Part shown: one piece after another, positions 27,394 to 41,048 of the stretch
How positions within the stretch are numbered: the first letter of the stretch is position 1
Layout: each line of letters begins with the position of its first letter
Origin: Thermoanaerobaculia bacterium
GTDB lineage: Bacteria; Acidobacteriota; Thermoanaerobaculia; Gp7-AA8
Assembly (NCBI GenBank): GCA_017883205.1
Contig: JADGNZ010000055.1
Span: 1 to 41,048, forward strand
Direction of reading: 5' to 3'
DNA: 41,048 bases
Program-made: the position numbers and the translations under genes
The notes under the pieces: generated by a model
Databases searched by the model: none
What the model was told of the DNA's origin: nothing
Seen by the model: only the letters and a program-made list of their open reading frames with translations

Positions 27394-28412
27394 GCGCAGG
27401 AACGCCGTCCGGCAAGCTCCACATCCCGATTTCCGTTTCCCGAATTGGCATCGCGCTCATGGCCGCGACGACCGCGATCGCCGGCCTTGCACTTTGCGGC
27501 ATCGCCTTCGGCCGCTCGCCGGGAGAGCTGCTCGCGATTCTCGCCAGCGGCTCGATCGGCTCGTCGTTCGCGCTGCAGGGAACGTTGCTCAAATCCGTTC
27601 CGCTCCTGCTCACCGGACTCTCCGTCGCCATCGCGTTCCGTGCCGGAGTCTGGAACATCGGCGGCGAAGGCCAGTTCCTCATCGGCGCGCTCGGCGCATT
27701 TCTCGGCGCTCGCTACGGTCTGATCGCATCGCTGGCGGCAGCGGTTCTGGCCGGCGCGATCTGGGCATCGATCGCGACCGCCATGCGGCTGTGGCGCAAT
27801 GCCCCTGAAGTGCTCACGACTATCCTCCTCAACTTCATCGCCATCCATCTCCTCGGGTACGCCGTGAATGGTCCGCTGCAGGAAGCGAGCGGCAAGTACC
27901 CGCAGAGCGATGCGGTACCGGCCGGCGCTGCTCTGCCGCTGCTCGGCAATCTCGAGTTGCATGCCGGCGTCGTGATCGCGGTCCTCGTTGCGATCGCCGC
28001 CTGGTACCTGCTGTATCGGACCGCCGAAGGGCTTCGCCTGCGCGCGACCGGATTCAACCGCTCCGCTGCGAAGTGGGCCGGCGTCAACGTCGACGCACAG
28101 CTCATCAGAGCGATGGCCATTTCGGGCGCGATGGCCGGGCTGGCAGGCGGTATCGAGCTCCTCGGCGTCACGCACCGCCTCTTTGAGCGCTTCGCTGCCG
28201 GCTACGGCTACGCAGGAATCGCCGTCGCCCTTCTCGCGCAACTCCATCCGCTGGGCACCATCGCCTCGGCATTCTTCTTCGGTGCGCTGACGACCGGCGC
28301 CGGCGAATTGCAGCGCACCGCCGGCATCTCGTCGATGGTGGCGACGCTGGCGCAGGCGATCGTCATCCTGGCCATGATCGCGTTTATGCGGCGGAGCAAG
28401 GCATCGTCATGA
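27390..28412 (+). CDS. Nucleoside ABC importer permease 1
   Basis: 340 residues from a GTG at 27390 that overlaps the ATPase stop. About eight or nine membrane helices. The family marks are SVAIAFRAGVWNIGGEGQFL near the cytoplasmic coupling region, APEVLTTILLNFIAIHLLGY and AAKWAGVNVDAQLIRAMAIS. This is the YufP-like permease of BMP-type importers. It overlaps the second permease (ATGA). All four importer genes are thus tightly packed. Confidence 0.92.
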   Translation: MSAGTPSGKLHIPISVSRIGIALMAATTAIAGLALCGIAFGRSPGELLAILASGSIGSSFALQGTLLKSVPLLLTGLSVAIAFRAGVWNIGGEGQFLIGALGAFLGARYGLIASLAAAVLAGAIWASIATAMRLWRNAPEVLTTILLNFIAIHLLGYAVNGPLQEASGKYPQSDAVPAGAALPLLGNLELHAGVVIAVLVAIAAWYLLYRTAEGLRLRATGFNRSAAKWAGVNVDAQLIRAMAISGAMAGLAGGIELLGVTHRLFERFAAGYGYAGIAVALLAQLHPLGTIASAFFFGALTTGAGELQRTAGISSMVATLAQAIVILAMIAFMRRSKASS

Positions 28413-29260
28413 CTTCGCAGCTCCTGGCCGCAATTCCGCTGGCGATCGTCGCGTCGACGCCGCTGCTGCTGGCGGTTCTTGGCGAGCTCGTCGTCGAGCG
28501 CGCCGGCATGATCAACCTCGGCATCGAAGGAATGATGCTGACCGCCGCGATGACCGCCGTGGTCGCGGCACAATGGACGCACAGCATCACGATCGGATTT
28601 CTCGCAGGCATCGCCGGCGCCGCGGCGATCGGCGCGCTCTTTGGTCTCTTCGCCATCCGATTCGCCGTCGATCAGATCGTGACCGGCACCGCCATCGTCC
28701 TGCTCGCCCAGGGACTGACCGGCGTCGTCTATCGCCAACTGCAGCAGAGCGCGATCTTTCTTCAGCCGGTGCCGCGCTTCGATACGGACGTCGTCGTGCC
28801 TCTCGCGTGGATCGTCATTCCGATCGTGCTGGCGTTCCTCCTCTGGCGAACCCGATTCGGACTTCGCCTGCGCGCATGCGGCGAGCTGCCCGCAGCGGTG
28901 ACGGCGGTGGGAGCGTCCGTGGCCATGCATCGCTGGATCGCGCTGGCGATCGAGAGCGTGCTCACCGGCATCGCCGGCGCCTACCTCGCGCTCGCCCTCT
29001 CCAGCGGCTTCGCCGAAAACATGACCTCGGGCCGCGGCTTCATCGCCCTATCGATCGTGATCTTCGGCCGCTGGAAACTCAAAGGTGCGCTGCTCGGAAC
29101 CGCCGTCTTCGGCATCGCCGCCGCCGCCCAATACTCGCTCCAAGCGAGCGGCCGCGGCATCCCGTTCCACCTGCTGCTAGCGATGCCCTATGTCGTGACG
29201 CTGCTGATCCTCTGCGGCATCGCGGGAAGAGTGAGGGCTCCGGAAAGCTTGGGGAGATAG
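28409..29260 (+). CDS. Nucleoside ABC importer permease 2
   Basis: 283 residues with about eight membrane helices. Typical motifs are ELVVERAGMINLGIEGMMLT, VDQIVTGTAIVLLAQGLTGV, and SGRGFIALSIVIFGRWKLKG, all conserved in YufQ-like permeases. It forms the heterodimeric channel with permease 1. Last gene of the importer operon; its stop is followed at once by the 102-bp tandem repeat region. Confidence 0.92.
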   Translation: MTSQLLAAIPLAIVASTPLLLAVLGELVVERAGMINLGIEGMMLTAAMTAVVAAQWTHSITIGFLAGIAGAAAIGALFGLFAIRFAVDQIVTGTAIVLLAQGLTGVVYRQLQQSAIFLQPVPRFDTDVVVPLAWIVIPIVLAFLLWRTRFGLRLRACGELPAAVTAVGASVAMHRWIALAIESVLTGIAGAYLALALSSGFAENMTSGRGFIALSIVIFGRWKLKGALLGTAVFGIAAAAQYSLQASGRGIPFHLLLAMPYVVTLLILCGIAGRVRAPESLGR

Positions 29261-29267
29261 GCAACCT

Positions 29268-29496
29268 CAGCACAGACAAGAGTGTCTGTGCCACACAACC
29301 CTCGCTTGAAGGGAGAGCTGGTCTTATAAGGCTGAGATTCGCCAGTGGCCCGAAGTGATGTGGCACAGACACTCTTGTCTGTGCTCAGGCCACCACACAA
29401 CCCTCGCTTGAAGGGAGAGTTGGTGTTGTCAGGGCTGAGATTCGCCAATGACCCAAAGTGATGTGGCACAGACACTCCTGTCTGTGCTCAGGCCAC
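29268..29496. repeat. 102-bp tandem repeat with internal palindromes
   Basis: Two direct copies (29291-29392 and about 29393-29496) share ACACAACCCTCGCTTGAAGG, GGCTGAGATTCGCCA and AAGTGATGTGGCACAGACAC. Each ends in a palindrome GCACAGACA...TGTCTGTGC, and a third such palindrome (about 29270-29291) precedes copy 1. It fills the gap between the importer operon and the convergent biotin carboxylase gene; several hairpins here may act as terminators for both. Confidence 0.8.
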
Positions 29497-29501
29497 TTGC
29501 T

Positions 29502-31034
29502 CTACCTCCCCCATTCGCCGATCGAATCCCACACGCTTCCGATGCCGGGCGCGCTGCCTCCCGTCGCGCGTTGCTCACGCTGCGTCGTTGAGGACAGCAC
29601 TGCCGCGAGCGCGGGAACTTCATCCGGCATGGAGCGGCGGAGCGAGTCCTCGTGATCAGCGATGAATCGCGTCGAGACGAGGCCATTGCGGAATGCGGGA
29701 TGCTGGACGACGCGGCGGAGCCAGGAGATGTTGGTCTTCGTGCCGAGGACGATGTAGTCGCGCAGGGCGCGGCCGAGGCAGTCGATGGCGGCGTCGCGCG
29801 AAGAGCCGGAGCAGATCAATTTGGCCAGCATCGGATCGAAGCTGACTCCGATCGCGGTGCCCTGACCTACGCCCGCATCCACGCGCACACCCGGACCCGC
29901 CGGCTCGCGGTAGAAGCGGATGGCGCCGCTCTGCGGAAGAAAGCGATCGTCCGGATCTTCCGCGTAGATGCGCACTTCGATAGCGTGGCCACGCTGGCGA
30001 AGATCGTCTTGCCGCCATGGCAACGGCGCGCCTCCAGCCACAGCAAGCTGCGCCCGGACCAGGTCGACGCCCGCAACCTCCTCGGTCACCGGATGTTCCA
30101 CCTGCAACCGCGTGTTCATTTCGAGAAAATAGAACTCGCCTTCCGGCGTGACGATGAACTCGACCGTGCCGGCACTTCGGTAGTCGACTCCGCGAGCCGC
30201 CGCCACCGCCGCCGCAGCCATGCGCGCGCGAAGCTCCTCGCTGTAGCGCGGCGCGGGCGTCTCCTCGATCACCTTCTGATGCCGCCGCTGGATCGAGCAG
30301 TCGCGCTCGAAGAGGTGAACGACGTTGCCCTCCCCGTCGCCGAAGATCTGGAACTCGATGTGACGGGGCTCCTCGATGTAGCGCTCGAGCAGAAGACGGT
30401 CATCGCCGAACGATTTCTTCGCCTCGCGCTGCGCCGACTCGATCGCACTTTGCAGTTCCGCGGCCGAGCGGACGATCTTCATTCCTTTGCCGCCGCCGCC
30501 CGCGCTCGCTTTGACGATCAGGGGAAATCCGATGCGCACCGCCTCGGCGGTCAATGCGCTGACGTTCTGATCGTCGCCGTCGTAACCGGGAACAACCGGA
30601 ACGCCGAGGCGCTGCATGAGGTGGCGGGACTCCGCCTTCGATCCCATCGCCGCAATCGAGCTCGCCTTCGGACCGACGAAGATGATGCCGGCATCGTCGC
30701 AGGCAGCGGCCAGCTCGGCGCGCTCGCTGAGAAAACCGTAGCCAGGATGAAGGGCATCGGCGCCGCAACGGCGCGCGACATCGATGACGCGCCCGACGTT
30801 CAGGTACGTCTCGCGCGCGTCGCCGTTGCCGAGAGAGATCGCATCGTCAAAGTAGCGTCGGACATAGCGAACGTCGTCGAGCTCCGAGTACGCGAGCACC
30901 GATTCGACGCCTGCCTCGCGGCACGCCCGCGCGATGCGGACGGCGATCTCGCCGCGGTTGGGGACGAGGAGACGGCGAAGAGCGGGGGTCGCGGGTCGGG
31001 TGTCGGGTGTCGTAGCCGGCGAGGGTGCGGTCAT
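29502..31034 (-). CDS. Biotin carboxylase subunit of an acyl-CoA carboxylase
   Basis: 510 residues from the ATG at 31034, which overlaps the preceding hydratase stop (ATGA). Biotin carboxylase motifs: LLVPNRGEIAVRIARACREA, the ATP-grasp loop GGGGKGMK, HVIEFQ-like RHIEFQIFGDGEGNVVHLFE, CSIQRRHQKVIEE and EMNTRLQVEHPVTE. Full-length methylcrotonyl-/propionyl-CoA carboxylase alpha subunits run to about 670 residues with a BT and a biotin-carrier domain; this protein stops just where the BT domain should begin (SVWDSIGEWGR). The stop is 6 bp from the tandem repeat, so truncation by the repeat is possible. Beside the hydratase, leucine breakdown is likely. Confidence 0.9.
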   Translation of the reverse strand: MTAPSPATTPDTRPATPALRRLLVPNRGEIAVRIARACREAGVESVLAYSELDDVRYVRRYFDDAISLGNGDARETYLNVGRVIDVARRCGADALHPGYGFLSERAELAAACDDAGIIFVGPKASSIAAMGSKAESRHLMQRLGVPVVPGYDGDDQNVSALTAEAVRIGFPLIVKASAGGGGKGMKIVRSAAELQSAIESAQREAKKSFGDDRLLLERYIEEPRHIEFQIFGDGEGNVVHLFERDCSIQRRHQKVIEETPAPRYSEELRARMAAAAVAAARGVDYRSAGTVEFIVTPEGEFYFLEMNTRLQVEHPVTEEVAGVDLVRAQLAVAGGAPLPWRQDDLRQRGHAIEVRIYAEDPDDRFLPQSGAIRFYREPAGPGVRVDAGVGQGTAIGVSFDPMLAKLICSGSSRDAAIDCLGRALRDYIVLGTKTNISWLRRVVQHPAFRNGLVSTRFIADHEDSLRRSMPDEVPALAAVLSSTTQREQRATGGSAPGIGSVWDSIGEWGR

Positions 31035-39778: not shown

Positions 39779-40938
39779 TGGCAAAGCTCAAACCGCAAGT
39801 CCGCTTGCTCTCGTTCATCTCGCTCCTGAACGATTCGGCGAGCGAGATGATCTATCCGCTGCTGCCGGTGTTCCTGACGTCGGTGCTCGGCGCGACGCCG
39901 GTGACGATCGGCGTGATCGAAGGGGCGGCGGATGGGCTGGCGTCGATTCTCAAGCTCGTGGCCGGATCGATCTCCGACCGGTTGCCGCACCGCAAACCGC
40001 TCGTCGTCGCAGGCTACGCCCTGGCAGCAGCATCGCGCGCGCTCATCGCGGTGGCGGGACGATGGCCGACTGTGTTCACGGCACGCTTGATCGACCGGAC
40101 TGGCAAAGGCATCCGCTCCGCGCCGCGCGACGCCATCATCGCCGACGTCACACCCCCTGCGGAGCGGGGACATGCCTTCGGTTTTCAGCGCGCTTTCGAC
40201 CACACCGGGGCAGTCATAGGCCCTCTCCTCGCGCTCTTTTTTCTGAACCTTCTCCACGTCCCGATGCGGACACTTTTCATGATCGCGGTCATCCCCGGCG
40301 CGATCGGCGTGGTGATGCTGGTCCTGTTTCTGAAGGAAGAGCCACGCAAGTCGAGAGCATCCGAGGGACCCGCGCTCAACGCATCCGTCCCCCTACCCTC
40401 ACGTTTCTGGCTCGCCATTACCGCGGTCGCGCTCTTCTCGCTCGCGAACTCGAGCGACGCATTTCTGATCCTGCAGGCACATGCGTCGGGCGTCTCGACG
40501 GCGATGCTTCCGGCACTCTGGGCCGCCCATCACGTGATCAAGTCGCTCTTCTCTACGCGAGCCGGCGCGTTGTCGGACCGCGTCGACCGGCGTCTTCTGC
40601 TCGTCGCCGGTTGGTCCTGCTACGCGCTCATCTACGTGATCTTCCCCTTCGCCCGATCGCTCCGGTTCTTCGTGGCACTCTTCGTCCTTTATGCGATTCC
40701 ATTCACGCTGTCCGAAGGGGCGGAGCGCGCATGGATCAGCGATCTCGTGCCGGCCGAAGGGCGCGGCAAGAGCTTCGGCATCTACTACCTCGCCAACGGA
40801 CTCTGCGTCCTCGCCGGCACGATCCTCTTCGGCGAGATCTACCAGCACATCGCACCACGCGCGGCGTTCTGGACGGGCGCGGGATTGGCGCTTGCGGCAG
40901 CAGCGGCGGTGATGATCGTGCCGCGGCGGCGTTCGTAG
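39778..40938 (+). CDS. MFS transporter
   Basis: 386 residues from the GTG at 39778, which gives an N-terminus AKLKPQVRLLSFISLLNDSA with the first helix in the right place; an ATG at 39715 would add 21 residues coded by the GAAGGAT hairpin. About twelve helices, MFS motif A-like region (GRWPTVFTARLIDRTGKGIR, then SAPRDAIIADVTPP), and ERGHAFGFQRAFDHTGAVIG. The substrate is unknown. Divergent from hbd. The stop is the first base of the terminal tandem repeat. Confidence 0.85.
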   Translation: MAKLKPQVRLLSFISLLNDSASEMIYPLLPVFLTSVLGATPVTIGVIEGAADGLASILKLVAGSISDRLPHRKPLVVAGYALAAASRALIAVAGRWPTVFTARLIDRTGKGIRSAPRDAIIADVTPPAERGHAFGFQRAFDHTGAVIGPLLALFFLNLLHVPMRTLFMIAVIPGAIGVVMLVLFLKEEPRKSRASEGPALNASVPLPSRFWLAITAVALFSLANSSDAFLILQAHASGVSTAMLPALWAAHHVIKSLFSTRAGALSDRVDRRLLLVAGWSCYALIYVIFPFARSLRFFVALFVLYAIPFTLSEGAERAWISDLVPAEGRGKSFGIYYLANGLCVLAGTILFGEIYQHIAPRAAFWTGAGLALAAAAAVMIVPRRRS

Positions 40939-41048
40939 CGCAGCGCGTACGTAGCGCCGCCCTTCGTAGCGCCGCCCTTCGTAGCGCCGCCCTTCGTAGC
41001 GCCGCCCTTCGTAGCGCCGCCCTTCGTAGCGCCGCCCTTCGTAGCGCC
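40935..41048 (+). repeat. 15-bp tandem repeat running off the window
   Basis: GTAGCGCCGCCCTTC repeated about six and a half times (40951-41048) after one degenerate unit. Near-perfect copies indicate recent expansion. The first unit provides the TAG stop of the MFS gene. The true length is unknown. Confidence 0.9.

Follow-up and report, generated by a model that had tools for sequence, protein, structure and literature searches.

Known 3-methylcrotonyl-CoA carboxylases (MCCs) are built from alpha subunits that carry the biotin carboxylase (BC) and the biotin carrier (BCCP), and from beta subunits that carry the carboxyltransferase (CT). The acetyl-CoA/propionyl-CoA carboxylase (ACC/PCC) of the Sulfolobales has three kinds of subunit, with BC, BCCP and CT on separate chains (both from extracts of PMC3199775). 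Three elements make up the BT domain, namely a long helix, a hook whose tryptophan is mostly conserved and lies buried in the beta subunit, and an eight-stranded barrel; in the numbering of human MCC this tryptophan is 543 (extracts of PMC4673880, on geranyl-CoA carboxylase, GCC). The putative enzyme described here resembles the alpha-beta MCCs of Pseudomonas (3u9s/3u9t) and human (8j4z) in that its BC is nearest to the MCC alpha subunit, its carrier is nearest to the C-terminus of that subunit, its beta subunit falls in the MCC beta group and its neighbours are genes of leucine breakdown. It differs in that the alpha subunit here appears as two chains, with the break within BT. With the Sulfolobales carboxylase, as far as those extracts describe it, it would share the three separate subunits and not the substrate. 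With acetyl-CoA carboxylase of the Escherichia coli AccB/AccC type it shares a separate BC and BCCP; that type is not known to have a BT domain, and an AccB/AccC-like pair is present on contig C81 of the same genome. Searches of an open-access library, which takes in few subscription journals, brought up no paper in which we saw a BT domain divided over two chains.

The DNA that we analysed (the window, 41,048 nucleotides) is the entire contig C98 of a 6.37-Mb draft genome in 105 contigs. Its BC gene, P0001 (29502-31079, minus strand), is a 525-aa open reading frame recognised by its Pfam domains, its EMNTRLQVEH signature and its relatives, with many BC columns invariant in our alignment A2. 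Translation probably begins at a codon further downstream than the first ATG, since the relatives' alignments begin mostly near residue 31-34. The nearest PDB match is MCC alpha, and relatives from other groups are 45-55% identical (at least 80 loci among the matches listed). The Pfam search found the BC N, ATP-grasp and C domains, nothing after these three, and no biotinyl domain in P0001.

The end of the protein, ...GSVWDSIGEWGR*, looks like the beginning of a BT domain. A C-terminal helix at residues 487-499 (29583-29621, minus strand; model residues 457-469 of the AlphaFold prediction, with pLDDT under 50 there) is read, together with the tail profile, as the BT helix. It is followed by a hook-like motif, S-V-W-x5-W-G-R (29505-29537, minus strand), in which W517 and W523 are both candidates for the hook tryptophan; the W-x5-W spacing is that of SPWSRNDGW in Pseudomonas MCC alpha 3u9s. 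W-x5-W or W-x5-F stands 2 to 3 residues ahead of the stop in all 14 complete ORFs from the order, our own genome included, and a profile of these 14 tails matched the start of BT when compared with 48 fused alpha subunits (97.0%, E 1.1e-10). The observation made in the preliminary description, that P0001 ends where a fused alpha subunit enters BT, is therefore borne out by the ORF end, by Pfam and by the tail profile.

Of the two explanations offered there, a separate carrier gene outside the window is the one that the data support. BCCP P0003 (156 aa) is encoded at C1:235592-236059, where it overlaps the HMG-CoA lyase gene P0006. Because the biotinyl domain is on this separate chain, we are dealing with a split form and not with a classical alpha-beta MCC. 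Seven biotinyl matches exceed the cut-off in the genome, four in frames of 405-489 aa and three in BCCP-like frames of less than 190 aa, of which one is on C81 beside an AccC-like BC, one is on C9 beside a second BC, and the one on C1 has no BC neighbour. In the PDB, P0003 is closest to MCC alpha 3u9s (residues 35-155 against 529-650), and PRK05641, a family of stand-alone BCCPs of similar length, was matched under its cut-off over nearly the full length. Of the 19 genomes examined from the order, 18 have a close copy of P0003 (at least 40% identity), our own among them; one genome (G007) has only the C9-type BCCP, and in another (G017) the copy lies in two contig-edge pieces. HMG-CoA lyase follows BCCP in 17 of these 18 loci, the eighteenth being cut by a contig end. 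No BCCP was detected in the window or in 13 fetched BC loci (tblastn, E 1e-3), where matches at the weakest limit had E 0.23 or worse and positive controls were detected. BCCP and BC are not close neighbours: in G009 their contigs measure 469 and 510 kb, and even the nearer contig end is 76 and 157 kb away from the respective gene.

The genes stand together outside the order. Three further families of the class (f4, f8 and f10) provide nine loci (L177-L185) in which BC, BCCP and HMG-CoA lyase are consecutive; seven of the nine have an MCC-beta relative of P0008 (67-72% identity) upstream, in one case truncated where its contig ends, and eight have the hydratase. In the wider stretches, L201 lies on a contig that starts at the hydratase, and the contig of L204 starts 2.1 kb before BC. 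In three more loci (L186-L188) BC and BCCP are present but the lyase is missing, and their BC is just 47-49% identical. Beyond the class, MCC-beta, hydratase, BC, BCCP and HMG-CoA lyase occur together in Vampirovibrio (L087) and Phycisphaerae (L105 and L139), hydratase, BC, BCCP and lyase in Planctomycetaceae (L061), and CT, BC and BCCP in Chloroflexota (L104 and L136) and Krumholzibacteriia (L114). Among 11 named loci whose BC has the tail motif, nine have a BCCP match; L098 and L132 have none at E 1e-5 within the stretch searched. Two Pseudomonadota MAGs (L101 and L123) show what seems a further split carboxylase, with consecutive short BC, BCCP and CT; their BC ends in a different tail (GAWRN), and the two share a long branch in the BC tree.

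In our genome the same genes are found as MCC-beta on C26, hydratase and BC on C98, and BCCP and lyase on C1. The hydratase P0007 (31031-31840, minus strand; PF00378) is read as a methylglutaconyl-CoA hydratase, presumably of the LiuC type; its best NCBIfam matches are PRK07468 and gamma-carboxygeranoyl-CoA hydratase, both under cut-off, and its relative lies between MCC-beta and BC in the operons of other families. The carboxyltransferase, which the preliminary description had proposed to look for elsewhere, is most likely the MCC-type beta subunit P0008 on C26. Its PDB matches are to the MCC beta group, with the top two otherwise named and the next being human, Pseudomonas and other MCC beta subunits. 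The first of the two, 9tps_A, is called 'propionyl CoA carboxylase beta' and shares its sequence with 9tqc, which is titled 3-methylcrotonyl-CoA carboxylase holoenzyme; the second, 4q0g, is a 'probable acetyl-/propionyl-CoA carboxylase AccD1'. An HMGL-like synthase (P0009, 34745-36016, minus strand), whose best matches are isopropylmalate and homocitrate synthases below threshold, also lies in the window, and its relatives occur near hydratase and BC in many loci of the family.

On the strength of the joined operons found elsewhere, we assign P0001, P0003 and P0008 to a three-subunit MCC. From this synteny we infer that BC, BCCP and MCC-beta, on three contigs, work together in this genome, and that their substrate is probably 3-methylcrotonyl-CoA. 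Since joined operons are found in other families, in Phycisphaerae and in Vampirovibrio, the operon has probably been scattered in this order, and the joined state is probably the older one. We put at roughly 85% the reading that P0001 is the complete BC subunit of a three-subunit MCC with a separate carrier, a scattered operon, a BT domain shared by two chains and a neighbouring repeat that is not involved. BC itself appears not to be broken, and to be a normal short subunit of a three-part enzyme of leucine breakdown.

The alternative that survives best is that this BC serves another carboxylase, acting on propionyl-CoA or another acyl-CoA, or is common to two carboxylases of the cell. The genome does have a PCC-type beta subunit (P0004 on C35, which matches PCC beta structures) and a second pair of BC and BCCP on C9. 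However, related BCs stand beside MCC-beta, hydratase and HMG-CoA lyase in other families, and the C9 pair would be the better candidate for a PCC, so we consider this alternative unlikely. The C9 pair itself, with P0005 as its BCCP, lies at L144:8475-10471 on the minus strand and is a possible partner of P0004.

The part of BT that comes next is matched by the carrier. A profile of the N-terminal 80-90 residues of 17 BCCPs from the order matched the fused alpha subunits at 91.5% (E 8.5e-7), against 1.5% for the reversed profile and 9.3% for the best of 100 column shuffles; the N-terminus of AccB from the same genome scored 0.5% against BT. A profile made from the N-termini of 11 named BCCPs reached 97.2% against the fused alpha subunits and 96.4% against the BCCPs of the order. 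Profiles of single sequences gave mixed results, from 6.0 to 96.5% over the 11 named BCCPs (6.0% for L105 and 6.8% for L061), and 43.7% for P0003 in our own genome. The N-terminus of P0005, from the C9 pair, matches BT too, at 71.2%.

A P0003 homologue, the Phycisphaerae BCCP of L105, has an AlphaFold model (mean pLDDT 85.3, pTM 0.44) in which eight strands at the N-terminus are followed by a linker of low confidence (87-99) and the biotinyl domain. VIA-align placed it end to end on human MCC alpha (1-172 on 551-717) and on human PCC alpha (1-170 on 558-728). These alignments are loose, with Z 12-14 and an rmsd of 8-15 A, values that would follow from a different relative orientation of the two domains, and the alignments with the highest Z cover the biotinyl domain alone (97-170; just 102-170 for Pseudomonas 3u9s). 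The BT helix, hook and barrel are thus each matched by profile, on two chains, with a loose structural match from the model of a homologue. At the level of sequence, these comparisons show that the tail of the BC chain and the N-terminus of the BCCP chain are homologous to BT, and the two matches would place the chain break between the hook and the first barrel strand, within a few residues.

We suggest that the two halves of BT reassemble in trans. The BC chain would end in the BT helix and the tryptophan hook, and the BCCP chain would begin with the BT barrel. The helix of BC could then thread into the barrel of BCCP, so that BT would be rebuilt and the carrier held to BC, the hook tryptophan would dock on the beta subunit, as it does in fused MCC and GCC, and biotin would swing between the BC and CT sites. 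The operon for such an enzyme would here be scattered to at least three contigs, with one break between BC and BCCP. Because the carrier would be held by a helix threaded into its barrel, it could be exchanged or shared between the carboxylases of one cell. We lean towards the wider view that a three-subunit MCC of this kind, with a two-chain BT, a carrier held by a helix in its barrel and a carrier that can be exchanged or shared between carboxylases, is widespread. With similar reserve, we would expect an MCC with a two-chain BT in this class, Phycisphaerae and Vampirovibrio as a minimum, and probably in other Planctomycetota and in Chloroflexota.

A two-chain BT would also give a direct test of what BT does, since helix-hook and barrel could be altered separately; if it exists, the roles to probe are holding BC to CT and choosing the right beta subunit. 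For annotation it is a trap: short BCs with a tryptophan-containing tail, and BCCPs with an unnamed N-terminus of 80 residues, look like fragments and appear to be the halves of BT.

The same BC end is found in the relatives. Our survey covered 60 genomes including our own, with 19 from the same order, and 13 relatives from the order have a complete BC ORF that is 58-85% identical to P0001 and aligned up to residue 523-525. Five of the 19 (G004, G007, G015, G016 and G017) gave no complete BC match: BC is in two contig-edge pieces in G016 (7-466 and 230-525), G007 and G015 give N-terminal pieces, and no close copy was found in G004 or G017, each 87% complete. The tail motif also ends 11 of 30 named short BC proteins from other phyla. 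Many of the remainder belong to different types, AccC-like or a Bacteroidota group with a KWKKNR tail, and the argument from gene order does not draw on them. In a quick, unrooted BC tree (110 rows, SH-aLRT only), the fused proteins form two groups and the short ones several, and the 15 BC rows of the order cluster with a support of 99.

These relatives decide whether the carrier part was lost here. On a rival reading, a fused alpha subunit lost its BT-BCCP part through the repeat beside the gene or because REP copies recombined with one another, and both the stop codon 5 bp from the end of the repeat and the alignment of the BC tail with the start of BT in fused proteins would agree with this. 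However, 13 relatives whose ORF is complete stop at the same point, and short proteins of other phyla close with the same motif, both of which speak against it; moreover, two genomes of the same genus (G001 and G002) have a different sequence in the gap, without this repeat. The relatives share both the short subunit and a conserved separate BCCP gene, so we regard deletion as highly improbable and the question of truncation as answered for P0001. The gene is cut short when compared with fused alpha subunits and is of normal length when compared with its own relatives. Misassembly at the repeat, which would have joined a wrong left flank to BC and which 85 palindrome copies in a 105-contig draft might favour, is equally improbable, as relatives have the permease in the same convergent place (for example L146, L148, L149, L151 and L155), the genome search gave no further BC of the P0001 type, and the seven biotinyl matches lie in the frames described above. 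We read this permease gene (28409-29260, plus strand), from its sequence and neighbours, as a putative ABC-type permease, convergent with BC and outside the enzyme; of the 13 loci fetched, seven (L146, L148-L151, L154 and L155) have a relative of it next to BC, and a relative is also readable in L147.

The repeat in the gap is a tandem of 2 x 103 bp (29291-29496, 91% matches). It was first described as a 102-bp repeat 6 bp from the gene; it does adjoin the gene, with a period of 102-103 and a gap of 5 bp between the end of the last unit (29496) and the beginning of the stop codon (29502). It contains or adjoins three 22-nt palindromes with a GTGG foot, at 29270-29291 (minus strand), 29363-29384 (plus strand) and 29466-29487 (plus strand), of which the first two form an inverted pair (REPIN) with arms at 29265-29295 and 29359-29389 that are 97% complementary. 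GT[AG]G at the foot of the hairpin is the mark of canonical REPs (extracts of PMC6006769), and GTGG is found there in all three copies. A genome search that allowed up to 2 mismatches gave 85 copies of the palindrome and none of the pattern read backwards, and the predicted fold of 29262-29392 has -76 kcal/mol (z -9.8); both figures argue that the repeat is not due to chance. When copies whose starts lie less than 300 bp from each other are grouped, the 85 form 44 clusters; 26 of these are one inverted pair in the order -+, and three, including that of the window, have the order -++. The palindrome is found in 8 of the 17 relatives searched, abundantly in G001 (56), G002 (214), G006 (195) and G008 (51). 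A consensus scan of 29000-30000 gave no intrinsic terminator, though each palindrome folds well.

Short palindromes with a GTGG foot, inverted pairs, a high copy number and one REP-flanked RAYT-like frame are all as in REP/REPIN systems with TnpA-REP (RAYT), and nothing in the repeat of the window is unusual for them. There are 15 PF01797 matches in the genome; the one at C19:37153-37323 (E 1.2e-6) lies between REPs at positions 1385/1479 and 2068/2220 of L206. It belongs to a RAYT-like Y1 transposase frame of 212 aa (L206:1507-2142, minus strand) with the motif MPDHVHLIFS and REP pairs on both sides, which possibly mobilises the repeat family of the window. The repeat looks like part of an ordinary REPIN population, with a REPtron arrangement on C19. 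We saw nothing that would give it a part in the enzyme; its tie to BC is its place in the convergent 3' gap, where it seems to have arrived later.

The other inverted repeat, found in the same gap in G001 (L146:8533-8645) and G002 (L147:8640-8745), consists of ATTCAACATT-like units and folds with z -7.7 and -5.8, so that palindromes from different families are found in this convergent gap. Further tandem repeats lie near both ends of the contig, at 102-220 (22 nt x 5.4) and 40932-41048 (15 nt x 7.7, cut off by the contig end), and the assembly may have stopped at the contig ends because of them.
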